From: an uncultured Opitutia bacterium
Lineage (GTDB): Bacteria; Verrucomicrobiota; Verrucomicrobiia; Opitutales; Opitutaceae
Length of the DNA: 38,343 nucleotides
Assembly (NCBI GenBank): GCA_903881475.1
Contig: CAIRTK010000006.1
Span: 1-38,343, forward strand
Reading direction: 5' to 3'
Under the pieces are notes generated by a model that worked only from the letters and a program-made list of their open reading frames with translations, did no database searches and was not told the DNA's origin. Shown one piece after another: positions 1,811-32,698 of this stretch (positions within the stretch are counted from its first letter, which is position 1; every line of letters starts with the position of its first letter). Made by a program: the position numbers and the translations under genes.

Positions 1811-1888
1811 AACGCGTCGGGAGTTTTGGGACCGGTTCCCGCACTCTGCGCTGGAATTGAAGCGCTCTGCTCCGCAATCTCCGCGGCC

Positions 1889-2809
1889 ATGAATCCCGTC
1901 CCGGCCCGCGAATTGAAACTTGGCATCATCGGTCTCGACACCTCGCACGTGCTCGTCTTCAGCGACACGTTCAACAACCCCGCCTCGCCGCAGGCGCTCA
2001 AGGGTGCGCGGGTCACCGCGGCGTGGCCGGGCGGCTCGCCGGACCTCGAGTCCAGCATCAGCCGCGTGGCCGGCTACACCGCCGAGGTGCGGGACAAGTT
2101 CGGCGTCGCGATTATGGACAGCCCCGAGGCCGTGGCGCAGGCCTGCGACGCGATCCTGCTCACCTCCCTCGACGGGCGGGTGCACCCCGGGCAGTTCGCG
2201 CGGATCGCGCCCTTTGGCAAGCCGGTGTTCATGGACAAGCCGTTCGCCGTCAGCACGGCCGACGCGAAGGCGATGTTCGCGCTGTCCAAAAAGCACGGCG
2301 CGCGGCTCTTCTCGTCCTCGTCGCTGCGCTTCACCGAGGCGCTCACGAAGATCGTGACCCCGGAGACACGCGCGCTGGTGCGCGGCGCGGACTTCTGCGG
2401 CGCCGCGGCGCATGAGCCGACCAATCCCGGGCTTTACTGGTACGGCATCCACGCCGTCGAAATGCTGTACACCGCCATGGGCCGCGGCTGCCGCAGCGTG
2501 CGCTGTGTCTCCACCGAGCATTATGACCTGGCGACCGGCGTCTGGGCCGACGGCCGCATCGGCACGGTCCGCGGCAACCGCACGGGCAACTACGAGATGC
2601 ACGGCTTGGTGCACTTCGAGAAGACCTCGGCCGCGGTCAACGTGCAGACGCAGGCGAAATCGTTTTATGCCAGCCTGACGGAAGCCTTCCTGGCGTTTTT
2701 CCAGGGCGGCGCGGTGCCGATCGACCCCGAGGAAACGATCGAGCTCACCCGTTTCATCGAGGCCGCCAACGAAAGCAGCGCGAACGGCGGCCGCGAGGTC
2801 CTGCTCTGA
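1889..2809 (+). CDS. Gfo/Idh/MocA family oxidoreductase (GLDTSH subtype)
   Basis: A 306-residue NAD(P)-binding oxidoreductase. The N-terminal Rossmann turn reads LGIIGLDTSHV (residues 11-21), a variant in which the usual GxGxxG is replaced by GLDTSH. I know this variant from a subgroup of these proteins in Verrucomicrobia and Planctomycetes. The EKP motif appears as FMDKPFAV (114-121), with K117 in the catalytic lysine position. A later YWYGIHAVEML segment carries the histidine typical of the substrate domain. The ATG at 1889 is preferred because the upstream in-frame ATG (1826) only adds non-family residues from the spacer. Members oxidise, reduce or epimerise sugars and cyclitols; the substrate is not predictable. 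The gene converges on the permease at 2902. Confidence 0.85.
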   Translation: MNPVPARELKLGIIGLDTSHVLVFSDTFNNPASPQALKGARVTAAWPGGSPDLESSISRVAGYTAEVRDKFGVAIMDSPEAVAQACDAILLTSLDGRVHPGQFARIAPFGKPVFMDKPFAVSTADAKAMFALSKKHGARLFSSSSLRFTEALTKIVTPETRALVRGADFCGAAAHEPTNPGLYWYGIHAVEMLYTAMGRGCRSVRCVSTEHYDLATGVWADGRIGTVRGNRTGNYEMHGLVHFEKTSAAVNVQTQAKSFYASLTEAFLAFFQGGAVPIDPEETIELTRFIEAANESSANGGREVLL

Positions 2810-2901: not shown

Positions 2902-4026
2902 TCAGCGGTCGCTGTAGGGATCGGCGGCGTCGCGCAGGGCGTCGCCGGCGAAGTTGAAGGAGAGGATCGTCAGCACGATGAAGAGCACGGGCGACAGCAG
3001 CCACGGATAGTGGCCGACAGTCTGGAGGTTCTGGCAGTCCTGGAGCATCACGCCCCAGCTCACGATGGGCGGGCGCAGGCCGAGGCCGAGGAAGCTGAGC
3101 ACGGTCTCGCCCAGGATCATGCCGGGCACTCCGAGCGTGAGCGTGACGATGATATGGCTCGTGAACCCCGGCACGAGGTGGCGGAACAGCACGCGTGCGT
3201 GCGAGGCGCCGAGCAGGCGCGCAGCGACGGCGTAGTCCTCCTCGCGGAGCGCGAGGATCTTGCCGCGCACCACCCGCGCGAGGCCGGTCCAGCTGATGAG
3301 GCTGAGCGCGACGGTCACGCAGAAGTACACGGTGAGCGGCGACCAGTCGGCGGGGAAAATTGCGCCGAGGGCGAGCCAGAGCGGGAGCTGGGGCAGGGCG
3401 TTGATCACCTCGATGACGCGCTGGATGAGGTTGTCCCAGCCGCCGCCGACATAACCCGAGATGCCGCCGAGCAGCACGCCGAGGACGAACGTGATGACCA
3501 TCGAGATGAGGCCGACGGAGAGGCTGATGCGCGCGCCGTAGATGAGACGCGACAGCACGTCCCGGCCGTATTTGTCGGCGCCGAGGAGGTAGAACACGGC
3601 GTCGGCATCGTCGGCCCGGCCGCGGGCGGCGAGCCGCTCCCGGTTGACCCCGAGGAAATGGCGGTCGAGCGGGATCAGGTTGAACAGCCGGTAAGGCTCG
3701 CCATGGACGAAGAACCCCAGCGGAATCTTCACGCCCGCATCCTCGACATAGGTCCGCGCAAACGTGACCGGGTTGTCGAGCCGCCGCAGGGCGCCGACGG
3801 TCAGGCCGTCCGCCCAGGAAAAGTGAATGGGCTGCGGCGGACAGTAGGAGTGCCGCAGATCCTGCCACTCCCGCGTGGCGGGCGCGAAGAACTCGCAGCC
3901 CAGGGCCATCACATAAAGGACGCACAGCAGGAAGAACGACGCGCTGCCGAGCCGGTGGCGCGCGAAACGGCGGAGCGTGAGCTCCCACGGTGAACGGACC
4001 GCCTCGGTTTTTTCCGGAGGATTCAT
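2902..4026 (-). CDS. DppC/OppC-type ABC transporter permease
   Basis: A 374-residue inner-membrane permease of the oligopeptide/oligosaccharide (Opp/Dpp) importer family. The order is typical: a basic N-terminus, a first membrane helix (about residues 26-50), a long periplasmic segment as in the YejE subgroup, the signature GADKYGRDVLSRLIYGARIS, then five helices. The coupling-helix (EAA) region reads DYAVAARLLGASHARVLFRHL, followed by GMILGETVLSFLGLGLRPP and a C-terminal NFAGDALRDAADPY. It lies downstream of the SBP-permease fusion on the same strand, separated by a 232-base spacer with an inverted repeat, and is its natural second transmembrane subunit. No ATPase genes are nearby. Members import peptides or, often in carbohydrate clusters, oligosaccharides. 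Confidence 0.92.
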   Translation of the reverse strand: MNPPEKTEAVRSPWELTLRRFARHRLGSASFFLLCVLYVMALGCEFFAPATREWQDLRHSYCPPQPIHFSWADGLTVGALRRLDNPVTFARTYVEDAGVKIPLGFFVHGEPYRLFNLIPLDRHFLGVNRERLAARGRADDADAVFYLLGADKYGRDVLSRLIYGARISLSVGLISMVITFVLGVLLGGISGYVGGGWDNLIQRVIEVINALPQLPLWLALGAIFPADWSPLTVYFCVTVALSLISWTGLARVVRGKILALREEDYAVAARLLGASHARVLFRHLVPGFTSHIIVTLTLGVPGMILGETVLSFLGLGLRPPIVSWGVMLQDCQNLQTVGHYPWLLSPVLFIVLTILSFNFAGDALRDAADPYSDR

Positions 4027-4039
4027 CGAGGTGGAAGCT

Positions 4040-4240
4040 CGAAGGTTGAAGTTCGAAATCCGAAATAAGTCCGATCAACCCGGAATAACCGGTCCGGCGA
4101 ACACGGGGGCCGGTCGTGACGAAACAAGGGGCGAGCCCGTGCATCATTCCGCGCCAAGGCCACCGTTTCACCCGTGGACTCCTCCTCAAAACCGGCGCGC
4201 ACGGATCGAAACCTTTTCGGATTTCGGGTTTCAACCTTCG
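4040..4240. repeat. Inverted repeat element inside the transporter operon
   Basis: Arm 4040-4066 begins CGAAGGTTGAAGTTCGAAAT and pairs with arm 4214-4240 as an imperfect reverse complement of 27 bases, with about five mismatches. The arms enclose about 147 bases with no gene. The element almost fills the spacer between the fusion gene (ends 4259) and the DppC-type gene (starts 4026), so it interrupts an otherwise co-directional pair. The GAAGGTTGAA core recurs near 8679, 14195 and 32624, each time just upstream of a minus-strand start codon. Confidence 0.7.
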
Positions 4241-4258
4241 TGCTTACGGGCGAGAATC

Positions 4259-7200
4259 TCATCTGCCGCCCCCCCCGAAACGGATGCGCGGGTCGAGCCA
4301 CAGCAGGAGCAGGTCGCTCATGACCGTGCCGAGCACGCCGAGCACGCTCAGCACCATGAGCATCGAGGCGGCGAAGTAGGTGTCCTGGTTGAGCAGCGCG
4401 AGCAGCAGCATCGGCCCGATGGTCGGCAGGCTGAGCACGAGCGCGACAATCGCGCCGCCGGACACGAGCTGCGGGAAGAGCACCGCGAGTCCCGAGACGA
4501 AGGGGTTGAGCGCGATGCGCACCGGGTACTTGAGCAGGAGCCGCAGCGGGCGCACGCCCTTGGCCCGGGCGGCGACGACGTAGGGCTTCTTCAGCTCATC
4601 GAGCAGGTTGGCGCGCATCACGCGCACCATCACGGCGGTGCTGCCGACGCCGAGCACGACGACGGCGACCCAGACGTGCTGCAGCAGGTCGACGACCTTG
4701 CCCCACGTCCACACCGGGTCCGCGGCGTAGCGCGTGCTGAACAGCCCGGACACACTGAGGCCGAAATATTCCCCGCTGAGGTACATCAGCACCAGGGCGA
4801 GCAGGAAGGGCGGCACGGACATGCCGACGAAGCCCAGCAGCGTGAGCCCGTAGTCGCCGAGCGTGTAGGGCCGGACCGCCGAGTAGATGCCGATCGGCAG
4901 GGCGATCAGCCAGGTGACGAGGATGGTCAGCAGGGAGATCACGAACGTGAGCACGAGCCGGTCGCCGAGGATTTCGTTGACCGGCAGGTTGCTCTCCATC
5001 GAGCGGCCCAGATTGCCCTGCAGCAGGCCGGTATCGGCGGCGTCGAAGGACACGAACCAGGAGAAGCCCATCCAGTGCGCGTAGCGTTGCCACGCCGGCT
5101 GGTCGAAGCGGAAGGTCTCCCGGAGGTTGGCGAGCTGGGCCTCGGCGTTCGGGTCGCCCGTCATCTCGATCTCCAGTTTCTTTGACGTGATGAAATCGCC
5201 CGGGGGCAGCTGCACGACCGTGAAAACAATGATGGAGATGACCAGCAGGGTGGGCCCGAGCACGAGCAGGCGCCGCCAGACGAACGGATACCGCAGGGCC
5301 AGGACGCCGAAGCCGCCGAGGACGGCAAGCCCGAGCGTCCAGCCCAGCCACGGCGGCAGGAGCGGTTTTGCTGCGGCGTCCTGGGCGCGGCTTTTGGCCG
5401 AGCGGGGCAGGAACGACGGATGGGCGATCGACTCCCGGATCCGGGCCACCGCGGCGGCGGAGTCGTTCGAGGACTCCCAATAGAACGTCTCGATGCCGAG
5501 GTTGGCCGGCGTCATGAAATAATAGCCGTTGAGCGCCCGGTCCGGGACATTGTGAAAGCCATCCTTCACGACCGCGAGACTGGGGGGCGGCGTGGCGAGG
5601 CTGATCGCCCAGACGTTGTCGGCCGCCAGGTCGAGGATCCGGTTGAAGTCCGCGATCCGCTCGGCCGGGGTGACGGCCACCTGGGCCCGGTCGAACAATT
5701 CCATCGCCTGGCGGGCGGGATGGCCGGGGGGCGGCCCCGCGAGGCCCGGGGCGTTCGCCTCGGGGTTGCCCTGCAGTCCGCCGCGCTGGTACCAGTGGCC
5801 CCAGACCGACGCGAAGTACGAGCTGCCGCCGGTCGGCACATAGTAGCGCGGGTCGAGCATCGGCATGAACTCCTCGAGCCCGGGCCAGTAGGTGAAGTCC
5901 TGCTCCAGCGCGGCCTGCTCGACCTGCCAGAGGGTCCGGACGTGGATCTGCACGATCGTGCGCACGCCCAGCCGGCTCCACTGCGCAGCCACCATCTGCG
6001 CGGGGTCGGGGGGGAAATTCGTGGCGAGGCTGAGGAACCACGTCATGCGTGTGCCGTCCGGAAACGTGCGGAAGCCCTCGCGGTCGCGCCGGCCGAGGCC
6101 GAGGCGGTCGAGCAGGGCGCCGGCCCGCGCCGGATCATACGCGGTGAAGGCGTGGAACTGGCGGGCGTTGGCGTAGGGCGAGTCGGGTCCGGGGGAGTCC
6201 TGCGCGGGTTCGCCGATGCCGTTGTAGACCGCGTCAATGATCGCGCGGCGGTTGATGGCCAGCGAGAGCGCCTGCCGGAAGGTTTTTTCGTTCAGCAGCC
6301 GGTGCTTCCAGGCCGTCTCGGGGTGCGCGGGATTCACTGCCCGGTTCAGGTTCGGGCTGATCTGCCCCATCGTGCGCGTGGCGCTGTACCAGTGCAGCAG
6401 GCGATAGCCCTGCCGCGGCGCCTCGGTCGAGAGCAGGGTGTAATCCTCGAAGTCGAGGCTGCGCTCCTGCATCGAGGTCTCGCCCCCGGCCACGGCGGCC
6501 GTGATCAGGGACTTGTCGCGGACGTCGACGACCACGCGGTCGAGGTAGGGCAGCTGGCGGCCGGCGGGATCGACCGCGAAGTAGTACGGGTTGCGGACGA
6601 AGGACTGCGGCGCGGTCGGCTGGTAGTCGCAGTAGATCCACGGCCACATGCGCGGGTGCTCGGGGTTGAGCCGGTGCTTCATGCGGATGTACACCGCAAG
6701 CGGGCTCGGCAGGTTCATCGCCTGCATCAGCCCGGCGATCACCGCCGGGTCGCCGAGGGCGGGATGAAATTTTTTCAGGTAATGCGCCGGCCGGAAATAC
6801 TCGACGGCCCCGGCGAGCCGCTCGAGGAACATGCTGTTGGGCTGCTCGAACCTGAACCGCACGGTCAGCGCGTCCACCTGCTCGATGGTCCCGAGCTGGC
6901 CGGCCTGGCGCATGAAGGAGTAGTCGGAGCCGCCGGAGGAGACCGTGCCGCCCTTGAAATAGAGCACCTCCCATTTCCACCAGAACAGGATGTCGTCGGT
7001 GGTAAAGGGATGGCCGTCGGACCAGCGCAGGCCCTGGCGCAGCGTGAAGGTCCACACGCGCTGGTCGGGTGACACGGTCCAGGACTTCGCGAGATGGGGC
7101 ACGATCGGGTAGCCCTGCGGCGACCAGCGGACGAGCGAGGCGTACGAGAGCCGTGTGTCGAGGATGCCCTCGATGTCCTCGGGTCCGGTGGCGAGCCGGT

Positions 7201-7591
7201 ACCAGGTGCCGCCGTAGCGGCCGGGGCCCTCGACGCCCTCGAGCACGACGGGCTCCGGGCCGGTGCGCTCGGCGACGGGCGGAAGTTTTCCCGTGCGCAC
7301 CAGCTCGTCCAGGACGGGGGACTGCGCCTTCGGCCACCAGGCGCCCCGGGAGCCGGCGCCATAGTCCACATCGCGCCAGATCACGGGGGGATGGGCCGGA
7401 TCCAGCCGGGCTTCGCGCGCAAGCCGGGCCGCCGCGGCCTCGGCGGCGGACGGCATCGCGGGCCGGCGGGAAAGGTCCGGCCGGAAAAACGCCGCCGTGG
7501 CGTAGATGAACGCCGTCAGCGCGAGCGCCGCCGCGGCCAGGCCCAGGAGGAACCGGGCGGCGAAGATCAGGCGGCGGGGAGCGTGGGGCAT
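4259..7591 (-). CDS. Fusion of family-5 solute-binding protein and DppB-type ABC permease
   Basis: This 1110-residue protein joins two normally separate importer parts. Residues 9-33 form a membrane anchor. Residues of about 110-700 form a family-5 extracellular binding protein: YGGTWYRLATGP, HLAKSWTVSPDQRVWTFTL, GLRWSDGHPFTTDDILFWW, and TFRQALSLAINRRAIIDAVY. A second helix (about 748-770, WLGWTLGLAVLGGFGVLALR) re-enters the membrane. A DppB-type permease follows from about 776 to 1110, with the usual LPPGDF loop, the PIGIYSAVRPYTLGD segment and the coupling region PYVVAARAKGVRPLRLLLKY. The helix count places the binding domain in the periplasm, tethered at both ends. Fused binding proteins are known for polar amino-acid importers such as GlnP; in the Opp/Dpp family a fusion is unusual. 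The partner permease is at 2902 and no ATPase is present. Sugar-type neighbours suggest oligosaccharide uptake (inference). Confidence 0.9.
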   Translation of the reverse strand: MPHAPRRLIFAARFLLGLAAAALALTAFIYATAAFFRPDLSRRPAMPSAAEAAAARLAREARLDPAHPPVIWRDVDYGAGSRGAWWPKAQSPVLDELVRTGKLPPVAERTGPEPVVLEGVEGPGRYGGTWYRLATGPEDIEGILDTRLSYASLVRWSPQGYPIVPHLAKSWTVSPDQRVWTFTLRQGLRWSDGHPFTTDDILFWWKWEVLYFKGGTVSSGGSDYSFMRQAGQLGTIEQVDALTVRFRFEQPNSMFLERLAGAVEYFRPAHYLKKFHPALGDPAVIAGLMQAMNLPSPLAVYIRMKHRLNPEHPRMWPWIYCDYQPTAPQSFVRNPYYFAVDPAGRQLPYLDRVVVDVRDKSLITAAVAGGETSMQERSLDFEDYTLLSTEAPRQGYRLLHWYSATRTMGQISPNLNRAVNPAHPETAWKHRLLNEKTFRQALSLAINRRAIIDAVYNGIGEPAQDSPGPDSPYANARQFHAFTAYDPARAGALLDRLGLGRRDREGFRTFPDGTRMTWFLSLATNFPPDPAQMVAAQWSRLGVRTIVQIHVRTLWQVEQAALEQDFTYWPGLEEFMPMLDPRYYVPTGGSSYFASVWGHWYQRGGLQGNPEANAPGLAGPPPGHPARQAMELFDRAQVAVTPAERIADFNRILDLAADNVWAISLATPPPSLAVVKDGFHNVPDRALNGYYFMTPANLGIETFYWESSNDSAAAVARIRESIAHPSFLPRSAKSRAQDAAAKPLLPPWLGWTLGLAVLGGFGVLALRYPFVWRRLLVLGPTLLVISIIVFTVVQLPPGDFITSKKLEIEMTGDPNAEAQLANLRETFRFDQPAWQRYAHWMGFSWFVSFDAADTGLLQGNLGRSMESNLPVNEILGDRLVLTFVISLLTILVTWLIALPIGIYSAVRPYTLGDYGLTLLGFVGMSVPPFLLALVLMYLSGEYFGLSVSGLFSTRYAADPVWTWGKVVDLLQHVWVAVVVLGVGSTAVMVRVMRANLLDELKKPYVVAARAKGVRPLRLLLKYPVRIALNPFVSGLAVLFPQLVSGGAIVALVLSLPTIGPMLLLALLNQDTYFAASMLMVLSVLGVLGTVMSDLLLLWLDPRIRFGGGGR

Positions 7592-7749: not shown

Positions 7750-8646
7750 TCAGGCATGGTATGGATTGAGCGCGGGCTGGCGGACAAAGCGCGCATGCAC
7801 CGCGTGGAGGTAATCGCGGGAACGCCGGGCGGATTCATAGGGATCGCCGCCGAGGTCGTAAGCCTGCGAGACGACCGGCCCGGTGTAGCCGCGCGACCAG
7901 AGCAGGCCGAGCGCGGCGGCGACATCGATGTTGCCGTCATCGAGGGGCCGGGTGCGGAAGGGCTCGGCGAGCTTGGGCCAGCCGTTAAGCACGGCAAAAT
8001 AGCCGAGGCGCTCCATGCCCGGCTGCGCCAGCAACTCGGGCAGGTCGGGCACGCCCTGGTGAAAGAAAGTGTGGAAGAGCGCCAGGCCGGGCCGGATCAC
8101 CCGGGCACCGGCGTCGCGGAGCACGCGCAGCTCCGCGGCGGGCGTGTCGATGATGAACCAGACATGGTTGTAGAGATTCCCGCTCAGCCCGCGGGCGGCG
8201 ATTTCGTCGTCGGCCGCGCGCACGAGGCGGGCGGCGCGCTCCCAGTGGCGCGGCTCGGCGCGGGCGGAGCCGGCCTCGCGGTAGTCGGGCGGGCTCCGGC
8301 CGGCGGGATTGCTGAAGACGGTGAAGTTGACGAAGGCGTGTGGATCGATCGCCTGCAGGCGCGCGATCATGCGGCGGGTGCGCTCGATCTCGGCGTCGAG
8401 TTTCGGGTATTCGTCGTCGGTCGCGCCCTTGGCCACCAGGTACATCCCGGCGTGTTTCAGGCCGCTGGCCCGGAAGGCCGCGGCCGCCTCGTCCCAGGAC
8501 CGGTCGTCGTCCGGCTCGATCGGGTGCAGCTCATAGCCGTCAAAGCCGAGGTCCGCGGCGATCGCGAGGCGCGTGCGGTAGGGATAATGGCGGCGGTGGC
8601 CGGTGAAGTGGTTGTTGAACAGGTAGAGGGGATTGGGGAAAGCCAT
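7750..8646 (-). CDS. Sugar phosphate isomerase/epimerase-like TIM-barrel protein
   Basis: A 298-residue protein of the xylose isomerase-like TIM-barrel superfamily (AP endonuclease 2 fold). Visible family features are the start FPNPLYLFNNHF, the strand-helix unit ADLGFDGYELHPIEPD, GLKHAGMYLVAKG, NLYNHVWFIIDTP with likely metal-binding residues, and the late SRGYTGPVVSQAYDLGGDPY. The expected role is isomerisation or epimerisation of a sugar or sugar acid in the cytoplasm; there is no signal peptide. It is first in a minus-strand run with the binding-protein/permease fusion (158 bases downstream) and the second permease, which suggests it processes the imported compound. The ATG at 8646 is preceded in frame by TGA six bases upstream, so the start cannot be earlier. 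Confidence 0.85.
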   Translation of the reverse strand: MAFPNPLYLFNNHFTGHRRHYPYRTRLAIAADLGFDGYELHPIEPDDDRSWDEAAAAFRASGLKHAGMYLVAKGATDDEYPKLDAEIERTRRMIARLQAIDPHAFVNFTVFSNPAGRSPPDYREAGSARAEPRHWERAARLVRAADDEIAARGLSGNLYNHVWFIIDTPAAELRVLRDAGARVIRPGLALFHTFFHQGVPDLPELLAQPGMERLGYFAVLNGWPKLAEPFRTRPLDDGNIDVAAALGLLWSRGYTGPVVSQAYDLGGDPYESARRSRDYLHAVHARFVRQPALNPYHA

Positions 8647-8770: not shown

Positions 8771-11125
8771 ATGAAGCCCACTCCCATCAATTCGGCCGAG
8801 GTCATCTTTGAAGCGTTCTTTGACGAGACGCTGAGCGGCCTGCCGCAGTGGCGGGTCCACGAGGGCGGCGCCCCGGGCCTGCAGGTCGGGCAGCGCTGGG
8901 CGTGGGTGCAGTACGACTGGCAGCGCCCGCCGGCCGATCCCGCGGTCCCCGCGCTGCGCATGAGCCGCGCGTACGACGTGGACTGCACGGATTACGACGC
9001 CCTGATGCTGTCGCTGATCGCCCCGCCCGGCGCGCGCGTGGCGCTGATCGCGGAGACGGACGCCGGCGCGCGGCGCGCGCTGAGCACGCCCTTTGCGCAC
9101 CAGAAGCGCGAACTCCTCCTGCCGCTGGACGGCGCGCGGCGCGTGCGCGGGCTGACGATCGAGATCTTCGCCGATCCGCGCGGCGCCGCGGGCGCGACCT
9201 GCGGCTGGTTCAACTGGATCGGCCTGCAGCACGGCGCGCAGCTGCAGCGCCACCTCCGGCAGCTGGCGCGCTTCGACGAGCGCTGGGAGGACTACCTGCA
9301 GCCCGACACGTTTGAGCCGACGTTCGAGCCGGCGTACGGCCTGCACCTCACAGGGGCGGAGCTGGCGGAGGCGCGGGAACTGTTGGCGAAGGCCGGCGGA
9401 CCGCGCACCTCGCCGCTCTGGGAACTGGCGGAGGATGCGCAGCGGCTCGTGCCGGAGCAAATGGCGAACGAGTACGTCAATTTCTGGAACGACATGCGGT
9501 TCAACCGCGAGCGCGACGTGGGCAAGCACCTCCTGACGCACGGGGCGAACGCCGCGCAGGCGGCGGTGCTCTTCCGCGACAAGCGGCTCGGCCGGCTGGC
9601 GGCGCGTTACGCGATCGCGCTGGCGCATTGCACGCGCTGGGACCCGTCGTTCCTCAGCTGGCTGACGGGCTGCAAGTGGGAGCACCGCGCGTTCGTGCCC
9701 AGCCTCGTGATGTACGACTGCGCGCTGATCCTCGACCTGTGCGGCGAGTGGTTCACCGACTACGGCCGGGAGCTGATCCTGCGCCGGCTGGCCGAGGAGG
9801 GGCAGGGCACGAACAACTACAACACGTGGTGGTGGGAGTACCTGTTCTGGTGCAACCAGACGACGTGGTTCCTGCCCGGGCGCATGTACGCCTACCTGGT
9901 GCTGGAGCGCGCGATGCCGGCGCGGTGGCAGCCCTACCCCAAACCCGTGGCCTCGCGGGTCGCGCCCTACACCGACCTCGCGCTGGCGGACCTCTACGAC
10001 AACCTCGCCAAGATCCTCCTGCCCGACGGCGGCTATACGGAGGGGCCGATGTACTTCACCGGCACGGCCCGCTCGGCGATCCTCACGTTCTACTATTATG
10101 GTCGCGCCCGGGGCAAAAACGCCCGCGGGCTGATCCCGCCCGCCATGCGCGCCACGGCACAGATGGCCGAGATGCTCGTGAGCACGGCGGACGATCTGCA
10201 GATGATCATGATCTGTGATGCGCAGTACATCCCGCAGGAAGGCGTGGCCTTTCTTGCCTGGCTCATGCCGGATTCGCACTGGGTCACGATCTTTCACAAG
10301 TCGATCGCCCGCACCGGCGGCCAGCCGATGACGCTGCTGGCGCAGAATCTCCTTCGCGAGGTGCCGGCCGCGGGCCCGGCGTTCCGGCCGCTGGTGGAGA
10401 TGCCCGCCATCGGCCAACTGGCCTCGCACCGGCAGCTGGGCGGAGCGCGGGTGAAGCTCTTCCTCATGGGCAACCAGGCCGGGGCCTCGCACACGCACGA
10501 GGACAAGGGCTCCTTCGTGCTCGAGTTTGCCGGCGACAGTTTTGCGCGCGACTTCGGCAGCTGCGATTACAGCAACCCGCTCGCCGACCTGCTCAAGCAC
10601 TGCCAGCGGCACAACATGCTCGTGCCGCTCGGCGACGGCGTGCGTCCGAAGCCCGCGAACCCGATCCTTGCCGACATCACGCCCCGGGGCCGCGGGGACG
10701 AAACGTCCTTCCATGCCACGATGGAACTCGCGGCGGGCTGGGAGGGCTGGTTCACGCACTGGAACCGCCGCTGGGACTCACCCAACCCGGCCGAGCTCAC
10801 GATCACCGACGACTGGGCGTTGGAGCGCGGGGAGGGCGTGACCTTTTACTGGACCACGACGCTGCCCATCACGCTTGACGCGGCGCGCCGCCAGGCGGTC
10901 ATCGAGGGCCGCCGCGGCCGCGCCACGCTCAGCTGGGGCGAGGACGTCGAGGCGGTCGTGGAGGCCTTGCCGCTGGAAGAGCCGGTGTGGAAAAAAGTCA
11001 TGCAGGAGCGCAAGGAACAGTACCTGGTGGCCACGCTTCACGCCGAGACGCAGCCGCGGCTCGCACTTACCCAGCGCGGAAGCAGCGGGAAGCTCGCCGT
11101 GCGGGTGCGGCTTGAATTGAAGTGA
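8771..11125 (+). CDS. Heparinase II/III-like polysaccharide lyase
   Basis: A 784-residue protein with a C-terminal heparinase II/III domain. The N-terminal ~150 residues look like a beta-sandwich, followed by an alpha-helical toroid (about 180-520). The signature GASHTHEDKGSFVLEFAGDS (571-590) leads into RDFGSCDYSNP and CQRHNML. By comparison with heparinase II, H574 is the catalytic-histidine candidate, H576, D594 and H614 fit the zinc site, and Y422 in GGYTEGPMY is the catalytic tyrosine candidate. Such lyases cleave uronic-acid polysaccharides or oligosaccharides by beta-elimination; the substrate here is unknown. No signal peptide is visible, so it may act on imported oligosaccharide. It is divergent from the isomerase-transport operon and its stop is only 12 bases from the convergent mannosidase stop. 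Confidence 0.8.
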   Translation: MKPTPINSAEVIFEAFFDETLSGLPQWRVHEGGAPGLQVGQRWAWVQYDWQRPPADPAVPALRMSRAYDVDCTDYDALMLSLIAPPGARVALIAETDAGARRALSTPFAHQKRELLLPLDGARRVRGLTIEIFADPRGAAGATCGWFNWIGLQHGAQLQRHLRQLARFDERWEDYLQPDTFEPTFEPAYGLHLTGAELAEARELLAKAGGPRTSPLWELAEDAQRLVPEQMANEYVNFWNDMRFNRERDVGKHLLTHGANAAQAAVLFRDKRLGRLAARYAIALAHCTRWDPSFLSWLTGCKWEHRAFVPSLVMYDCALILDLCGEWFTDYGRELILRRLAEEGQGTNNYNTWWWEYLFWCNQTTWFLPGRMYAYLVLERAMPARWQPYPKPVASRVAPYTDLALADLYDNLAKILLPDGGYTEGPMYFTGTARSAILTFYYYGRARGKNARGLIPPAMRATAQMAEMLVSTADDLQMIMICDAQYIPQEGVAFLAWLMPDSHWVTIFHKSIARTGGQPMTLLAQNLLREVPAAGPAFRPLVEMPAIGQLASHRQLGGARVKLFLMGNQAGASHTHEDKGSFVLEFAGDSFARDFGSCDYSNPLADLLKHCQRHNMLVPLGDGVRPKPANPILADITPRGRGDETSFHATMELAAGWEGWFTHWNRRWDSPNPAELTITDDWALERGEGVTFYWTTTLPITLDAARRQAVIEGRRGRATLSWGEDVEAVVEALPLEEPVWKKVMQERKEQYLVATLHAETQPRLALTQRGSSGKLAVRVRLELK

Positions 11126-11137: not shown

Positions 11138-14100
11138 TCAGCCGGCCCGGCTGAGCTGCAGGCTCACGATCTCGTATGGGGCGAACGGCAGTCGGCCGGC
11201 GCGCAGCGGGGGGCCGAGCGGCTCGCCCAGCAGGTTTACCTTATGCGCGGTCCAGCCCGGCGCGAGCCGCAGCCGGGCCGTGCCGCGCTGGCCGCCCACC
11301 TCGTGGAGGCGCAGTTGCCAGCGGTTGCGACCCTGCGGCTCGGCCCAGTGCGGGATCAGGGTCCCGCCGTCGTCGAGACCGGAGAAGGCGGCGGCCACCG
11401 GCGTACCGACATAGGCCACCGGCGGCGTGAACAGGGTTTCGGCCAGCACGGCCGGGTGGTTGCCGTTTGGGGCGCCAGCGGCATAGTGCCCGAGCGCGAG
11501 CTCGATGGTGTGACGGCCAAGGTCGGTGAAGACCGTCGCCGGCCGCGGCAGGCGGCTCAGGTGGGCCGGGTAGGCGCGCGCGTGGTCCTCGAACCCGACG
11601 TGCCGCGGGGTGCGCAGCAGCGTGACGCCGAGGTCGCCGTCGCGGCAGCTCACGCCGTACTTGGCCGCCGTCACGACGAAGAGGCCCGTGCGCTCGGAGT
11701 CGGCGCTCACCGTGGCCCAGCGGCTCATCGGCCACTCCCACATTGCCTCGGCCTCGCGCGTGGTGGCGAGCTGCGGCCGGAGCACACTGCCGAACGGTGT
11801 GCCGCAGCGCACCTCGCGTCCGCGGTAGGCCGTGGGAAAATGCAGCTTCAGCAGCACGTCCGGCTCGTGCCAGTCGAGCGTCACCGTCACGCGCAGCACG
11901 TCCGCGCCCGGTTCCAGCCAGTAGCGGATCGCGGCGGTGCCGGCCCGCCCGACGGGGCGCGTCACAGTGAGGCCGGTGCGGTCGGACGTGATCCGCGCGG
12001 GCCGGCGCGCGGGTTGGCCGAGCGAGAGCGCGTGCCGGTCGATGTCCCAGGGGCCGAAGTTGGCGGACTGCTCGGGATAGACCACGAGTTCCCCGGCACC
12101 GGCGGCGAGCTCAACCGCCACGCCGTCGACCGCGAGCGCGGCGAGCCGGCCGCGCGCGTCGAGTCGCGCGGCGACACGGCCGTTGGTGAGCGTGCGACCG
12201 CGGACAACGACAGACGGCAGGCCGCGGACGAGGGCCGCGGCGGCCGGGACGCCGGCGAGCGGCGGAAGATCGTACACACGCCCGCCCACCACGCAGCGGC
12301 GCGGGAGCGGCAGAGGATTGAAGAGGCAGCGCACGCCACGCGCTGAGCGGGCCCGGCCCCGGAGGACGGTGAGAGCGGCCGCGGTCTGCTCGCGCGCGAG
12401 CCGCGCCAGCTCGGGCAGGCCCTCCGCATAGACTTCGGGAATCGAACTGCCGGGGATATAATCGTGAAATTGCGCGAACACCATCCGCCGCCAGGCGCGG
12501 GCCAGATCGGCGCCGGGAGCGCCGCGCTTCGCCACCAGCGCCGCCTCGTGCAGCTGCAGCGCGCGCTCGAGCGCGCGGAAGTGCGACTTCACGCGGCTCT
12601 GGGTGGTGAACGTGCCGCGGTGGTACTCGAGGTAGATTTCACCGTCGAGGGCGGGCAGCTTCGCGCGCTTGGCCGCGAGCCGGTCGAAGAACGCCTCCGG
12701 CTGGTCCCACTGCAGGGCGGGCAGCCCGCGCAGCGCCGTGAGCCGGCGGGCGCGCTCGCACAGGTCCTCGCTCGGCCCGCCGCCGCCGTCGCCCCAGCCG
12801 TTGGGCATCAGGAATTCATCGTGCACGTCGCCCTGCTGGTGCTGGTGCGAGGCGGCGCGCAGCTGCTCGACCGTGAGCGTGTTGTTGAACTGCACGCCCT
12901 GGGTCACGTGGCTGACCACGGCGTGTCCGCCGGGGCCGCGCCAGACAAAGCTGGAGTGGGGGAAGCGGTTGACGGTGTTCCACGTGGTCTTGGTGGTGAA
13001 GAAATAGTCCACGCCGCTGAGCCGCATCAGCTGAGGCAGGCAGGCGCTGAAGCCGAAGAGGTCGGGCAGCCACAGGACGCGCGAGCGGCGGCCGGTGAGC
13101 CGCGCGAACGACGCCTGGCCGAGGACGAATGCGCGGGCCAGGCCCTCGCCGCAGGCGACGTGCGAGTCACTCTCCACGTACATCCCGCCGGTCGCCTCCC
13201 ACTGGCCGGAGCGCAGGCGCGCACGCACGGCGCGATGCAGGGCCGGAGAGCGGCGCTGCACGGCCTCGTAGCTCGCAGCCTGCGAGTAGGCGAAGCGGAA
13301 CTCGGGATAGAGTGCCATGAGCCGGTTCGCGTTCGCGAATGTGTGCACGGCCTTGCCCTCGCCGACCTGTTCGGTCCACAGCCAGACGAGGTCGAGGTGC
13401 GAGTGGCCGGTGAGGGCGGCGCGCGCGAGCGGGCGCGGGTCGCGCAGCTCGCGATAGAGCGTGGCGAGGGCACGGCGCAGCGCGGTGACGCCGGCCGTGT
13501 CGAAGGCGTCCAGCGCGGCGTCGAGCCCGCGCAGCAGGCGGCGGTAGAGCGGGGAGACGTCGGTGAGCGGTGGCTGCTGCGCCATGCCGTTGAGCTCGCG
13601 CAGCACCCCGGGGTGTTCGCGGGTGCGCAGCTCGAGCATCCAGTCGTTGAGGCAGGCGAGATCGTGGTAGGCGGCCCAGGCCTCGTCGTCACGGCGCCGT
13701 AGTTGCGCGCCGCGGAAGATGTTGCCCGCGGCGCCCAGACCCTTGGCGTCCGGATGCCAGATGGCGGCCTGCACGCACAGGCTTTCAACCCAGACCTCGC
13801 GCACGCCGGCGGGGAGTTCGACCGTGCGGTGAGCGACATCGAAGCCGTAGAACGGGGCGTCGCCGACAAACAGCGTGGCCTCGCCCTGCTCATCCCAGTG
13901 GAGCCAGCGGCCGCCGCCGGGAGGAAGGACTAGGCGGCACCAGCGCTGGTCATAGAGCCGGCCCCACGCCTCGCCGTCGCGCACCGCCCGGCGCGAAAAT
14001 TTTTTCGCCGCGGCGAGGGATACGTGATCCGGCCGGCTCGTCGTGGCCTCGACCCGCACGGCCCGCGGGTCGTGCCAGATCAGCTCGGCGAGGCGGGAGA

Positions 14101-14155
14101 CTCCGCGTTGCATGCGGAGGGGCGTGAGTTGGATGAGGGGGTTGAGGGGCAGCAT
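11138..14155 (-). CDS. GH38 alpha-mannosidase
   Basis: A 1005-residue retaining alpha-mannosidase. The catalytic core shows TGHSHLDLVWLW (residues 249-260), whose histidine and aspartate bind zinc, WLPDLFGFSACLPQLM (362-377), where D365 is the nucleophile candidate and zinc ligand, and FAQFHDYIPGSSI (560-572), with the last zinc histidine. A beta-sandwich C-terminal half completes the family length of about 1000. I start at the ATG at 14155 (MLPLNPLIQLTPLR); the frame is open further up to 14251, but that part reads through a dispersed leader repeat and adds no family sequence. There is no signal peptide, so it is probably cytoplasmic and trims imported manno-oligosaccharides. It converges on the heparinase-like gene and is divergent from the regulator at 14595. 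Confidence 0.93.
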   Translation of the reverse strand: MLPLNPLIQLTPLRMQRGVSRLAELIWHDPRAVRVEATTSRPDHVSLAAAKKFSRRAVRDGEAWGRLYDQRWCRLVLPPGGGRWLHWDEQGEATLFVGDAPFYGFDVAHRTVELPAGVREVWVESLCVQAAIWHPDAKGLGAAGNIFRGAQLRRRDDEAWAAYHDLACLNDWMLELRTREHPGVLRELNGMAQQPPLTDVSPLYRRLLRGLDAALDAFDTAGVTALRRALATLYRELRDPRPLARAALTGHSHLDLVWLWTEQVGEGKAVHTFANANRLMALYPEFRFAYSQAASYEAVQRRSPALHRAVRARLRSGQWEATGGMYVESDSHVACGEGLARAFVLGQASFARLTGRRSRVLWLPDLFGFSACLPQLMRLSGVDYFFTTKTTWNTVNRFPHSSFVWRGPGGHAVVSHVTQGVQFNNTLTVEQLRAASHQHQQGDVHDEFLMPNGWGDGGGGPSEDLCERARRLTALRGLPALQWDQPEAFFDRLAAKRAKLPALDGEIYLEYHRGTFTTQSRVKSHFRALERALQLHEAALVAKRGAPGADLARAWRRMVFAQFHDYIPGSSIPEVYAEGLPELARLAREQTAAALTVLRGRARSARGVRCLFNPLPLPRRCVVGGRVYDLPPLAGVPAAAALVRGLPSVVVRGRTLTNGRVAARLDARGRLAALAVDGVAVELAAGAGELVVYPEQSANFGPWDIDRHALSLGQPARRPARITSDRTGLTVTRPVGRAGTAAIRYWLEPGADVLRVTVTLDWHEPDVLLKLHFPTAYRGREVRCGTPFGSVLRPQLATTREAEAMWEWPMSRWATVSADSERTGLFVVTAAKYGVSCRDGDLGVTLLRTPRHVGFEDHARAYPAHLSRLPRPATVFTDLGRHTIELALGHYAAGAPNGNHPAVLAETLFTPPVAYVGTPVAAAFSGLDDGGTLIPHWAEPQGRNRWQLRLHEVGGQRGTARLRLAPGWTAHKVNLLGEPLGPPLRAGRLPFAPYEIVSLQLSRAG

Positions 14156-14172
14156 CAGCGGCAGTTTCAGGC

Positions 14173-14214
14173 GGGACGATGCAGGGGAAAGGTCAAAGTT
14201 GAAGGTTGAAAGCG
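14173..14214 (-). promoter_or_regulatory. 42-base conserved leader element, copy 2
   Basis: This is the second copy of the element at 8656-8697, with 38 of 42 bases identical. It begins GGGACGATGCAGGGGAAAGG on the plus strand and ends in the GAAGGTTGAAAGCG motif. It lies 17 bases upstream of the mannosidase start (14155). The two copies stand in the same orientation relative to their genes, which argues for a role in expression, though both could be copies of one mobile repeat. Confidence 0.55.
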
Positions 14215-14594
14215 CCGTTGACGTACAGACTCCACGCCGAGATGCCGCCACGGCTTTCCGTTAGCAACGGGAAGCCGGTAGATACTGCCGGTTCCTTTGC
14301 CTTTACGCTAGGAACGGCCGCGAGCCGGTTGAAGGGCCGGCCGCCCGGCCGCCTTTACTTTAGGGCGATTGCCTGCCACTGGGTGAGTGGCCGGGCCACC
14401 TCCCTCTATATTATTAGAGCGAGGGCGACCAGCGTGATGATCCGGTCCAGGCTAATCATAAAAAGGTATTTTATCCTAAATTTAAGTAGTACCCTGCGAA
14501 ACTCCGCCGGCTGAGAGCCGTCATCGCCGGAACGCCAACACAACTGTGCCAAGCCAAGCGTAGGCTTTGGGCAGGAGACAAACCACCGCATTTC
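14215..14594 (+). promoter_or_regulatory. Intergenic region upstream of the pseudo-receiver regulator
   Basis: About 380 bases contain no gene. The first half is GC-rich with several short inverted repeats. From about 14400 it turns AT-rich, holds a small dyad CTCTA (14404-14408) with TAGAG (14415-14419), and then a promoter-like AT stretch around 14450-14490. AGTAGTACCCT occurs at 14485-14495, resembling two sites upstream of the TonB receptor. An AGGAG at 14573-14577 is 17 bases ahead of the regulator ATG, a long spacing for a ribosome binding site. No promoter boxes can be named with confidence. Confidence 0.4.
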
Positions 14595-20882: not shown

Positions 20883-23060
20883 CTACGGGGATTTTTTCCG
20901 GGCGGCGATTTCCCCGGCAAGCACCCGGGCTCGATTCCGGGCGGCTAGGGTGACCCCGGTCCCGGCGGACGGTTCGAGCGCGGCCCGGGCTGTGAGGGCA
21001 TCGCGATCGCCGGCCTCCGCCGCGAGGGTGAGCCAGGCGAGGCCCTCGACGGGATCCTTTGCCACTCCGGTGCCGGAGACATACATCGCGCCAAGGCTGG
21101 ACTCGGCCCCGGCGTCGCCCTGCTCGGCGGCGCGGCGAAACCACCGGACGGCCTCGCCAGGCTGCCGCGGCACGCCGTCGCCCCCGGCGTAGATCACGCC
21201 GAGATTGTACTGGGCGTCGACCATCCCCTGCTCGGCGGCCAGCCGGTACCACTTCACGGCCGCCGCGCTGTCCTTCGGCACGCCGTCGCCCTCGGCATAA
21301 ATCACCGCGAGGTTGAACTGGGCCGTGGCCAGGCCCTGTTCCGCGGCGCGGCGGTACCACTGTACCGCGGCTGCCGGGTCCTTGGCGATGTCATCGCCGC
21401 CATGGGCATAGAGATAAGCCAGGTGGTTTTGCGCCTGGGCATCGCCGCCCCCGGCCAGCAGGCGTACTTCATCCAGCTCCGAGCCCACCTCCTTGATCCC
21501 GCCCTGCTCATCCAAGTACATCACCGGCTGGTACACGCCGCCGGGTTCCTTGCGCCAGAACTGGCCGGTCTTCCGGTAGGTGGCGAAATCGGTGAAGCTC
21601 ATCCGGTACACGGGCAGACGGATCATCATGGCGGGCCGGTCCGCAAACGGGTCGCTGCGGAAGAACCGCATGATGGCCGGATCCCGCCGCAGCAGATGCT
21701 CCGCCACGATCCCGAAGAGCGGCGAGGGGGGATCGCTGTAGCCCGCGATCTGCAGGGCGGCCTCAAACCGGGCGTAGCCCGGGGCGATGACGGGGCAGAG
21801 TTGGTCCAGCCGCTGCGGCTGGTAGCGGAAGGGATACAGCCGCCAGGTGCGGCCGCCATCATTGGAGCCCTCGAACTCGACGGCATAGCGGTTCGAGGGC
21901 GTGCCCGCGAAAAGCGTGAAGGAATTGATGCTGCGGAAACTCCAGAACGCCGCCTTGAAGGGCCGGGCGAGGGCGAAGGGAAAGCCCTCCGTCGGCAGGC
22001 CGCAGACGAGGGCAAAGAAGAGCAGCGAGAGCCCGAAATAAGTCCAGAGGGCGGCGCGCAGGGCCTGGAGCCGCCACGGGGTGCAGGTGGGAACGACGGG
22101 CGCCGGTGCAGCTGGGGCCGGCCGCCACCGGGCGGGCCACCGGAGTTTTTCGGCGGCGGTGGCGAACATCTGGTCATCGAGCAGCACTAGGCCGAGCACG
22201 ATGGCCGCGGCGTTGAGCCAGCCGAAGTTGTTCGTCAGCTCGATGCCCGCCTGGAATACCGTCCAGACGACAAACGCGAACCATCGCCCGCGCCGGCCGC
22301 CGAACACCGCCAGCAGCGGCCCCGGCAGCTCCGCGATGAAGGTGAGAATGATTTCAAAGACGTGGTAGGCGAACGGCAGCTGATGGTCCAGGTAGCTCAG
22401 GAACATCGGGAACGGCGTGGTCACATACATGGCGTCCATCGCCGTGAAATTGTGCCAGTGCGGATCCCCGCCCAGTAGCTTCATCAGCCCGGCCTCGAAC
22501 ATGAGCCGGAACAGCATCCAGCGGACCATGAAGACGGCGACCGGAAGGGGCGGGGAGGAGGCCCCGAGCCCGGGGCGCAGCCCGGCGGGCGCAAACGCGA
22601 TCGCCACCAGCGCCAGTTCCAGCATCACGCGATCGGGCTGGGTCTCGGAAAACGCGCGCCACGTGGTCACGAAGGAAAGGAAGATCACCCAGCAGGCGAA
22701 GAGCGCCCCGCGCGGCCACAGGTTCAGGACCAGGGCCGCCGCCGCCACGAGGCCGCACCAGCCGAGCGCCTGGATCATGCCCGAACTTCCGCTGATCCAG
22801 AACAGGCTCGGCGCGTGCAGGAAGGCGATGACGGGATTGGGGAAGGCCTGCGCGATTCCCGCCAGGAAGTCGCCGACCGGCGTCAGGCCGCGCGGGCCGA
22901 TCAGCGGATCGCCGCCCCCGCCGATGATCTCGGCAAAGATGATCACATAGATGATCCCGGCGGCCCGCAGCATGAGCCACCGCGGCCACAGGTAGGTGGC
23001 GCTGCCGTCCGCACCGGAGAATTCCATCAAGCGCCGCCAGGCGCCTCGCAACACATGCAT
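20883..23060 (-). CDS. LMF1-family membrane protein fused to Sel1 repeats
   Basis: A 725-residue protein. Residues of about 15-520 match the lipase maturation factor (LMF1) family: YLWPRWLMLRAAGIIYVIIF, LIGPRGLTPVGDFLA, about eight further helices including NNFGWLNAAAIVLGLVLLDD, then a soluble part with YPFRYQPQRLDQLCPVIAPG and a loop around RFFRSDPFADRPAMMIRLPV. Residues of about 540-684 form four Sel1-like repeats (typical unit LATAQFNLAVIYAEGDGVPK), ending in a basic tail. LMF1 in animals helps lipases fold in the ER; bacterial members have no firm function. The Sel1 tail suggests docking of a protein partner (inference). The ATG at 23060 is chosen because the open frame upstream lacks family similarity and is antisense to the nucleotidyltransferase gene. 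It is divergent from that gene, with a 210-base spacer. Confidence 0.8.
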   Translation of the reverse strand: MHVLRGAWRRLMEFSGADGSATYLWPRWLMLRAAGIIYVIIFAEIIGGGGDPLIGPRGLTPVGDFLAGIAQAFPNPVIAFLHAPSLFWISGSSGMIQALGWCGLVAAAALVLNLWPRGALFACWVIFLSFVTTWRAFSETQPDRVMLELALVAIAFAPAGLRPGLGASSPPLPVAVFMVRWMLFRLMFEAGLMKLLGGDPHWHNFTAMDAMYVTTPFPMFLSYLDHQLPFAYHVFEIILTFIAELPGPLLAVFGGRRGRWFAFVVWTVFQAGIELTNNFGWLNAAAIVLGLVLLDDQMFATAAEKLRWPARWRPAPAAPAPVVPTCTPWRLQALRAALWTYFGLSLLFFALVCGLPTEGFPFALARPFKAAFWSFRSINSFTLFAGTPSNRYAVEFEGSNDGGRTWRLYPFRYQPQRLDQLCPVIAPGYARFEAALQIAGYSDPPSPLFGIVAEHLLRRDPAIMRFFRSDPFADRPAMMIRLPVYRMSFTDFATYRKTGQFWRKEPGGVYQPVMYLDEQGGIKEVGSELDEVRLLAGGGDAQAQNHLAYLYAHGGDDIAKDPAAAVQWYRRAAEQGLATAQFNLAVIYAEGDGVPKDSAAAVKWYRLAAEQGMVDAQYNLGVIYAGGDGVPRQPGEAVRWFRRAAEQGDAGAESSLGAMYVSGTGVAKDPVEGLAWLTLAAEAGDRDALTARAALEPSAGTGVTLAARNRARVLAGEIAARKKSP

Positions 23061-23270
23061 GACAGGGTGGGGTTCGCTGGGGTGGATTAGGATCGGGGTC
23101 GCGGTCCGCGGGATGCCACGGGCTACAAAATCAACTCCTGGCCCAACGTCTATCCCGGAACGAGGGAAGATGTGTGGCCGGTTCCGTCCGGCGCCGGCTG
23201 CGGGCCTGGTCTGGCCGGGCCCGCCCGCCGGGGTTGCGCCATGCCGGGCAATCACTTTTGCTGCCGCACG

Positions 23271-24373: not shown

Positions 24374-24408
24374 ATCCGTGATAATCCGCGCAATCCGTGG
24401 TTAAAAAT
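24374..24408. repeat. Short dispersed repeat of the CCGTGATAATCCGCG type
   Basis: The tract from ATCCGTGATAATCCGCGCAA to the TTAAAAAT at its end is a known kind of intergenic repeat in many GC-rich bacteria (recognised from memory, not searched). It lies 42 bases ahead of the chosen GH116 start. Because an in-frame GTG at 24397 falls inside it, the repeat makes an earlier start for that gene unlikely. Confidence 0.55.
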
Positions 24409-24450
24409 CTAGACCTCCAATTGCGGCTTCGCCGCGTTACTCTTTTCGCG

Positions 24451-32616: not shown

Positions 32617-32665
32617 TCGAATAGAAGTTGAAGGTTGAAAGCTGAATGCTGGTCGGAGGGCGGGA

Positions 32666-32698
32666 GCGAAAGTGTCACGTATTACGTGACACTTTCGC
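32666..32698. promoter_or_regulatory. 33-bp perfect palindrome with TGTCAC-N7-GTGACA core
   Basis: Bases 32666-32681 and 32683-32698 are perfect 16-base reverse complements around one central base. The core TGTCACGTATTACGTGACA (32673-32691) has the TGTCAC-N7-GTGACA layout seen at 2834 and 33645. It lies 50 bases ahead of the oxidoreductase start and 80 bases after the aldolase stop. It could be an operator for a dimeric regulator, or a hairpin in the aldolase-oxidoreductase transcript; no T-run follows, so it is not a simple terminator. Confidence 0.8.

Follow-up and report, generated by a model that had tools for sequence, protein, structure and literature searches.

A family-5 binding protein fused to a DppB-type permease in an uncultured member of the Opitutaceae: probable receptor and half-channel of an Opp/Dpp-type importer

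Background

In known Opp importers the substrate is collected by binding proteins that are free or lipid-anchored, and in the osmolyte importer OpuA a binding domain is covalently tied to the permease. A contig of an uncultured member of the Opitutaceae raises the question of what an Opp/Dpp-type binding protein does when it forms one chain with a DppB-type permease and no ATPase gene lies nearby. The window analysed here is the entire contig, C6, of 38,343 bases. We report that the fusion is, judged from its conservation, a real gene product design and not a sequencing error, and that it probably represents the receptor and half-channel of an Opp/Dpp-type importer, which would operate with a separate DppC, an OppD-OppF pair encoded on contig C22 and a saccharide as cargo. 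The preliminary description called this type of fusion unfamiliar in the Opp/Dpp family, and in the open-licence literature (titles and abstract openings) we likewise found no report of a binding protein-permease fusion in this family.

Domain organisation of the fusion protein

The fusion is encoded by a single open frame, in which a membrane helix, an SBP_bac_5 domain, a second helix and a complete DppB-type permease follow one another.

4259..7591, minus strand: fusion protein, 1110 amino acids, SBP_bac_5 binding protein and DppB-type permease (open reading frame, Pfam, AlphaFold2 model, conservation in relatives)
7484..7582, minus strand: hydrophobic helix at the N-terminus, residues 4-36, probably a membrane anchor (AlphaFold2 model, sequence rules)
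5462..7354, minus strand: family-5 (cluster C) binding domain, residues ~80-710 (Pfam, fold and sequence comparison)
5291..5353, minus strand: linker membrane helix, residues 747-767, probably running from periplasm to cytoplasm (AlphaFold2 model)
4268..5290, minus strand: DppB-type permease domain, residues 768-1108 (Pfam, NCBIfam, fold comparison)
4487..4636, minus strand: ATPase-docking (EAA-type) loop region, residues 986-1035, with DELKKPYVVAARAKG (sequence)

The open frame, Pfam and AlphaFold2 agree with the description of one chain that joins a family-5 binding domain to a complete DppB-type permease. Pfam places SBP_bac_5 at residues 163-550 (E 4.4e-51; 174.6 bits, cut-off 32.4) and, in the permease half, BPD_transp_1_N at 770-884 followed by BPD_transp_1 at 897-1104. 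In the AlphaFold2 model (mean pLDDT 80.3, pTM 0.77) a helix at residues 4-36 precedes a binding-protein fold that extends to about residue 710, and the helix at 747-767 is followed by the first permease helix at 769-794. By fold the permease half matches M. tuberculosis OppABCD (chain 8j5q_B, Z 26.7) and E. coli DppABCDF (chain 8z1y_A, Z 25.4); NCBIfam Opp/Dpp models also match it, yet below their equivalog cut-offs. Pfam and fold together identify a family-5 binding domain as in Opp/Dpp (PepT) importers and an OppB/DppB-type permease with its N-terminal subdomain, and in a PDB profile search that matched 104 sequences, each of the best 60 spans one half only, either binding or permease.

That the binding domain is tethered by a helix on each side holds for the model, where both helices are present, but the N-terminal one may be cleaved, and an A-T-A site compatible with cleavage is found there. 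Using home-made sequence rules rather than a signal-peptide or topology predictor, and with some near-duplicates (from overlapping named and unnamed collections) among the 86 fused proteins, we found a median N-terminal hydrophobic run of 22.5 residues in the fused family (n=86) versus 16 in binding proteins encoded on their own (n=27), a cleavable-signal pattern in 55 of the 86 versus 26 of the 27, and a hydrophobic linker segment in all 86 fused proteins. We consider the N-terminal helix a probable uncleaved anchor, and the topology as a whole is predicted from the model. The loop at residues 986-1035, which we take to be of the EAA-type and presumably docks the ATPase, includes N995, L996, L997, D998, E999, L1000, Y1004, A1010 and G1012, all invariant across 47 fused proteins.

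Relatives of the fusion

The same-genus genomes G001-G004, G006, G007 and G010 carry the fusion frame unbroken, at 69-78% identity, and more distant relatives (45-58%) keep most or all of it. Full-length fusions occur across the order and the phylum, in many genera and several bacterial phyla (Verrucomicrobiota, Planctomycetota and others) and in independent assemblies. The fused permeases group in a single clade (SH-aLRT 99; 90 fused rows and one frame-broken exception) in a tree computed without L019, L049, L099, L105, L126 and L145 (duplicates) and L074 (partial), in which the window was entered once ("win") and some near-duplicates from the overlapping collections remain.

Unfused relatives with adjacent genes do exist: L097, the sister of the fused-permease clade, where the binding-protein gene stops just ahead of a separate permease gene, and 27 separate-gene loci among L149-L178. 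These could suggest that an assembly or sequencing artefact joined two genes in the window, but the uninterrupted fusion recurs in the independent assemblies of many genera and several phyla, which makes such an artefact scarcely credible. The two findings named in advance as fatal to the fusion did not materialise, since relatives carry the same unbroken frame and the 27 loci are distant, being 34-38% identical to the fusion (28-34% in the binding protein, 44-53% in the permease). L141 was rejected as a natural split and is not counted as a separate-gene relative because its frame has breaks at more than one position and the coverage in its MAG contig name is 4.66. In L137, too, the frame is interrupted, within the binding domain. 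A second fusion in L042, suspected from a long open frame, proved to be separate genes. Gene positions in the loci were taken from tblastn because the ORF picker failed on low-GC loci.

Genomic neighbourhood and cargo

2902..4026, minus strand: DppC-type partner permease, 374 amino acids, with EEDYAVAARLLGAS (Pfam OppC_N and BPD_transp_1)
4027..4258, minus strand: spacer separating the fusion from DppC; contains a dispersed inverted repeat (sequence)
1826..2809, plus strand: Gfo/Idh/MocA-type oxidoreductase, oriented convergently to the fusion operon, with synteny in the genus (locus comparison)
7750..8646, minus strand: AP_endonuc_2 / xylose-isomerase-like TIM barrel, syntenic in relatives (Pfam, locus comparison)
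8771..11125, plus strand: heparinase II/III-like C-terminal domain protein, syntenic neighbour (Pfam, locus comparison)
11138..14251, minus strand: GH38 alpha-mannosidase, syntenic neighbour (Pfam, locus comparison)

The DppC-type partner announced at position 2902 is OppC/DppC-type by Pfam, with NCBIfam matches below equivalog cut-offs, and EEDYAVAARLLGAS is presumably its own docking motif. The inverted repeat in the spacer has 37 matches in its own genome, itself included.

A saccharide-type cargo, as proposed earlier, appears likely: SPH1118 of Sphingomonas sp. A1 is among the two closest solved relatives of the binding domain, and the GH38, heparinase-type and Gfo/Idh genes are neighbours. 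SPH1118 is its closest solved saccharide-binding relative, alike in fold and overall sequence (E 1.2e-65; against 7veu, its complex with galacturonic acid, 593 residues superpose at rmsd 2.1 with Z 40.6); T. maritima OppA (5ipw), whose annotation is oligopeptide-binding, outscores it by sequence and, marginally, by fold (Z 42.2). SPH1118 is described as binding pectin and unsaturated trigalacturonate, with Arg57, Arg438, Arg466, Arg496 and Trp594 contacting the sugar (PMC9314435). In an alignment read by eye, Arg466 and Arg496 align with R552 and R582 of the fusion and Trp594 with Tyr690, while Arg57 and Arg438 are unmatched; with two of the four arginines matched, the key residues are conserved in part only, and the alignment does not establish acid-sugar specificity. 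SPH1118 also differs in being, as described, a predicted separate periplasmic protein with separate permease genes nearby (PMC7055323). Among 102 neighbouring proteins hand-picked from 292 listed over the fusion loci (families listed: 25 of 132) there is no dominant family, sulfatase being the most frequent (6/102), and therefore no single cargo can be deduced. We infer that the cargo is probably a saccharide, most likely an oligosaccharide.

Source of the ATPase

No OppD/F gene was found in the window, and the six oligo_HPY matches of the genome (G000) are all on contigs C22 and C55. The statement that no ATPase lies nearby is thus correct for the contig; a candidate OppD-OppF pair is, however, encoded on C22, assigned by tree and phylogenetic profile.

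G000:C22 13757-14593: OppD (OppD tree, profile)
G000:C22 14590-15468: OppF (beside C22 OppD)

Walker A, signature, Walker B and switch motifs are intact in both proteins. C22 OppD falls inside a clade of fusion-operon OppDs (SH-aLRT 98 in the first tree; 99 in a later tree in which C55 and orphan rows were thinned). Members of this clade are present in 34 of 35 fusion-bearing and none of 53 fusion-free genomes (first batch 17/18 vs 0/23; second batch 17/17 vs 0/30), counts that are not independent because the genomes are mutually related. G005 (92% complete, 330 contigs) has a fusion, split across two contigs, and no clade OppD. Plain identity was discarded as a criterion for the profile: it split the first 41 genomes (at least 63% vs at most 59%) and failed in the second batch, and the OppDs of the fusion-free G137, G186, G252 and G305 reach 61-62% identity, yet lie outside the clade. 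OppF identities overlap between fusion and non-fusion operons. In G017, G027, G033 and G035 a close DppC (64-69%) adjoins the clade OppD on a contig separate from a fusion with no C next to it (in G035 the fusion is at a contig end, its downstream region unseen). Tree and profile make the C22 pair the candidate cognate motor, its physical pairing with the fusion being a prediction.

Other sugar importers are known to have ATPases in common. With this precedent, the same importer could instead be powered by the C55 OppD-OppF, which adjoins no permease or binding-protein gene, or by several pairs. We consider this unlikely and disfavour C55 as the cognate ATPase: C55 OppD lies outside the fusion-operon clade and is 52% identical to C22 OppD as against 61-77% for in-operon OppDs, and its 90-98% relatives are also found in the fusion-free genus members G008, G009 and G011. 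A likelier user of the C55 pair would be a cluster on G000:C13 with four family-5 binding proteins, one B-C pair and a weak OppF-like match (29-32%) only.

Survey of fusion loci

Among 54 fusion loci with at least 5 kb downstream, the window not included, 21 have C, OppD and OppF adjacent (e.g. L062, L057, L110 and L111), 20 C only and 13 neither; a separate DppC without a binding domain comes after the fusion in 41 of the 54. In this count 17 loci were left out for short flanks, the upstream flank is sometimes missing, L119 was placed under C only (counting it with C, OppD and OppF would rest on a 36% match), and L141 and L137 are within the 21. In L130 OppD/F is divergent.

Several genomes have more fusions than clade OppDs. 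Fusions, close DppCs and clade OppDs number 3/2/1 in G040, a single contig, and 4/3/1, 2/2/1 and 2/1/1 in the drafts of G023, G007 and G221; the G049 draft has three full fusions and one close full-length DppC beside its one clade OppD, with an additional partial DppC adjoining an unfused permease (G049 and G221 are 82-86% complete). In all 14 within-genome paralogue pairs the permease half is more alike (63-85%) than the binding domain (41-72%), and 13 of the 54 loci have the fusion alone. We tentatively suggest, as a possibility we hold at somewhat below even, that fused receptor-B chains are interchangeable specificity modules on a shared OppD-OppF motor and, in some genomes, also a shared C. 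Sharing is not universal, because G203, with at least two fusions, has three OppDs at 64-68%, of which two adjoin fusions, and G033 has two fusions and two OppDs. A further counterpoint is that binding proteins commonly evolve faster than permeases. In ECF-type vitamin importers (group II) a common core serves several specificity units; this is an analogy only, and we take the proteins to be unrelated.

Discussion

The fusion, its conservation, the single clade, the DppC, the docking and ATPase motifs and the clade membership of C22 OppD are all read from sequence; topology, the pairing with the C22 ATPases, transport itself and the cargo are predictions. The family-5 domain would sit in the periplasm, held by the permease-side helix and, probably, the uncleaved N-terminal helix, and would capture a saccharide, most likely an oligosaccharide, and pass it to a channel whose two halves are the DppB part of the fusion and the separate DppC, with ATP supplied by the C22 pair. 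Because only B bears a binding domain, each B-C heterodimer would carry exactly one tethered receptor.

Alternatively, the permease half could merely anchor the binding domain, and the protein signal the presence of a nutrient with no transport. The contig without an ATPase and the 13 loci with neither C nor D/F nearby fit such a sensor, and SPH1118 is described as doubling as a chemotaxis receptor (PMC7055323). We regard it as very improbable, given that the docking-motif residues are invariant, the DppC partner is intact, 21 of 54 loci retain C, OppD and OppF, and in four genomes a close DppC and a clade OppD lie together on a separate contig.

The proposed importer shares with E. coli DppABCDF and M. 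tuberculosis OppABCD the binding-protein fold, B and C permeases and docking motifs; by fold its permease half resembles 8z1y and 8j5q, and the C22 ATPases are of the oligo_HPY type. It differs in that a single chain with an additional helix comprises both binding protein and B, the ATPases are unlinked in this genus and the cargo is probably a saccharide. The fusion-bearing relatives are, we assume, mostly from phyla with two membranes. Binding domains are described as typically soluble in Gram-negatives and lipid-anchored or fused in Gram-positives (PMC9732360). The earlier comparison with GlnP stands for the working principle, a binding domain covalently joined to the permease in one chain as in GlnPQ (PMC8025302) and OpuA, but not for homology: GlnPQ and OpuA belong to different transporter families, and up to E 0.001 the permease half matched Opp/Nik/Gsi/Dpp/Yej/Sap-type permease models only, with no GlnP/OpuA model among them (the separate DppC has a marginal GlnP match, E 0.00089). 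GlnPQ is described as a homodimer with two binding domains per permease chain (PMC8025302), whereas the B-C heterodimer would bear one, and a fixed 1:1 ratio of receptor to channel, unlike in GlnP, is plausible.

One lineage appears to have joined a receptor permanently to a half-channel. Each transporter would then have exactly one tethered receptor, a naturally occurring example in which to study the effect of tethering on affinity, speed and competition. If several chains share a motor or core, specificity would be changed by swapping units of receptor and half-channel, not binding proteins, and operon-based annotation would miss the motor. Finally, our data suggest uptake of oligosaccharides by proteins whose annotation is probably that of parts of peptide transport systems.

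The fusion protein and its relatives

The preliminary description had proposed that a family-5 binding protein and a DppB-type permease are joined in one chain, which is borne out by an uninterrupted frame with ordered domains.

4259-7591, minus strand: fusion gene, a stop-free frame of 1110 residues with SBP_bac_5, BPD_transp_1_N and BPD_transp_1 in that order (Pfam)
4027-4258: spacer containing a dispersed inverted repeat (37 genomic matches, itself among them)
2902-4026, minus strand: DppC-type partner

The fusion and DppC genes almost abut in several relatives. The top permease models are Opp4B and Opp2B (NCBIfam), with scores under the equivalog cut-offs. An AlphaFold2 model of the fusion (pTM 0.77, mean pLDDT 80.3; input alignment of 47 rows, the window protein and scanned loci) predicts a helix at residues 4-36, the binding fold, a helix at 747-767 and finally the permease helices, with pLDDT below 50 at residues 216-222, 732-746, 1042-1056 and 1104-1110. 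Since DppB topology is usually N-in, the helix ahead of the permease would be required for the chain to return from periplasm to cytoplasm.

All 57 same-order genomes gave some match to the fusion. Uninterrupted fusions of full or almost full length occur both within the genus (69-78% identity; one copy, in G005, is divided between two contigs) and outside it (45-58%); a sequencing error joining two genes is thereby rejected. In the phylum 24 of 387 genomes, own included, matched at E 1e-100 or better, among them one partial match (G274, residues 22-882) and one separate permease alone (G359). A wider contig scan, limited to the best 80 matches, gave 78 loci. Of these, 51 count as fused, two of them frame-broken (L137, L141) and two edge-cut (L129, L139), and in 27 the genes are separate and adjoining. 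Rhizobiales, Rhodobacterales-type, Chloroflexi and a few further records account for the separate-gene loci; the fused records are named Verrucomicrobia/Opitutae, Lentisphaeria, Victivallis, Kiritimatiellota, Planctomycetota/Phycisphaerae, Spirochaetes, Hydrogenedentota, Gemmatimonadetes, Raymondbacteria, Abditibacterium and Electrothrix, and because most are MAGs, lone fused records in odd phyla may be binning errors. Judged from sequence, the fusion is real and conserved. A quick tree built from 129 permease domains (branch support SH-aLRT, no bootstrap) groups 90 fused rows and L141 in a single clade (99), to which the unfused L097 is sister (98); the simplest reading would be one gene-fusion event.

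The N-terminus and the linker each carry a strongly hydrophobic segment in 86/86 fused proteins. Compared with 27 separate binding proteins, they have a longer N-terminal run (median 22.5 vs 16) and fewer cleavable-signal patterns (55/86 vs 26/27), which favours retention of an N-terminal anchor across the fused family; in the window protein, which has an A-T-A site, the helix may be either retained or cleaved.

GlnPQ has binding domains linked to its permease (PMC8025302), and binding domains are described as typically soluble in Gram-negative and lipid-anchored or fused in Gram-positive bacteria (PMC9732360). The fusion would resemble GlnP in working principle but belongs to the Opp/Dpp family, where such fusions had been called unfamiliar; this agrees with searches of an open-licence library, in which the titles and abstract openings listed contained no description of an Opp/Dpp binding-protein/permease fusion. 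In PMC3654945 a table row for the PepT family gives 27, and the word 'fused' is absent from the text. The importer parts are ordinary, their joining unusual.

Cargo and neighbouring genes

Among solved structures, T. maritima OppA (5ipw; E 1.4e-80) and SPH1118 (E 1.2e-65) come closest to the binding domain, followed by the alpha-galactoside-binding MelB. Pectin and unsaturated trigalacturonate are ligands of SPH1118, whereas it hardly takes up tryptone or yeast extract components in binding tests (PMC9314435). Two of its four sugar-contacting arginines align with arginine in the fusion, and its key tryptophan with tyrosine. Fusion neighbours in the window and genus include GH38, a heparinase II/III-like protein, a TIM-barrel isomerase and Gfo/Idh enzymes. 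Oligosaccharide, the cargo suggested earlier, is likely from SPH1118 kinship and sugar-type neighbours; an acidic oligosaccharide is possible. Comparison of 102 hand-picked neighbour proteins found no cargo enzyme common to the other fusion loci.

An enolase-superfamily gene, absent from the window, lies directly ahead of the fusion in L050 (6393-7532). Elsewhere the window encodes a GH116 glycosidase followed by an APH-type kinase (24397-28124), a protein combining LMF1 (lipase maturation factor) domains with Sel1 repeats (20883-23726), and a 736-aa frame (31495-33705) with a Gfo/Idh-type oxidoreductase domain in its C-terminal half and no Pfam match in its first 360 residues.

A candidate OppD-OppF pair

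The absence of a nearby ATPase, noted in the preliminary description, holds for the window contig, as all six oligo_HPY matches in the genome lie on contigs C22 and C55, but C22 provides a candidate OppD-OppF pair. One C22 operon, of another Opp type, comprises binding protein, B, C, D and F; facing away from it is a second OppD-OppF pair, in whose neighbourhood no permease gene was found. The OppD of this second pair shares 61-77% identity with 27 OppDs from fusion operons and 49-59% with 24 from unfused ones. For OppF there is slight overlap between the two ranges (59-73%, n=25, vs 50-61%, n=23). In the OppD tree the second-pair OppD falls in a clade of fusion-operon or fusion-genome rows only (support 98, 42 rows; 99 and 56 rows in a second tree).

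OppDs of this clade were present in 17/18 fusion-bearing vs 0/23 fusion-free genomes in a first batch and 17/17 vs 0/30 in a second, fusion status being taken from the same-order and phylum searches. Eleven fusion-free rows of the second batch placed on the tree all fell outside the clade; fusion-free matches not put on a tree did not exceed 58% identity, or there was none at the threshold. The exception, G005, is a fragmented assembly. Fisher's test on 34/35 vs 0/53 gives 1.3e-23, not a real probability because the genomes are related; within the genus the counts are 8/9 vs 0/3 (p 0.018).

The C55 pair sits among apparent housekeeping genes (judged by eye). A B-C permease pair on C13, near four family-5 binding-protein genes (L078, 6232-18434) and with only a weak OppF-like match nearby (29-32%), is possibly a client of this orphan pair. 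Another kind of Opp-family fusion, apparently of DppB with DppC in one putative chain, occurs in L041 (1504-3792; 762 aa) and L042 (2-1873; frame open at the end).

Split operons and unequal numbers

Where 5 kb or more of downstream sequence was available, in 54 fusion loci, 21 have C, OppD and OppF beside the fusion, 20 C only and 13 neither (counts corrected for L119; 17 further loci with short flanks lie outside this count). In G017, G027, G033 and G035 a close DppC (64-69% identity) adjoins a clade OppD on a contig other than the fusion's. OppF was checked in some of these four; G033 has, in addition, a complete operon on C48, and the G035 fusion is located at a contig end.

Fusions, close DppCs and clade OppDs number 3, 2 and 1 in the single-contig genome G040, 4, 3 and 1 in G023, 2, 2 and 1 in G007, and 2, 1 and 1 in G221. 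G049 has three full fusions, one full-length close DppC side by side with one clade OppD, and an additional partial DppC on C21; upstream of an intact fusion it also carries a partial fusion binding domain, a match with one stop (L065, 3648-4952). Counter-examples are G203, where three OppDs at 64-68% (one of them placed on the tree) accompany two or more fusions, and G033 (two fusions, two OppDs). In 14/14 paralogue pairs the permease halves are closer than the binding domains. The most interesting part lies outside the window: some genomes have more chains uniting receptor and B permease half than motors for them.
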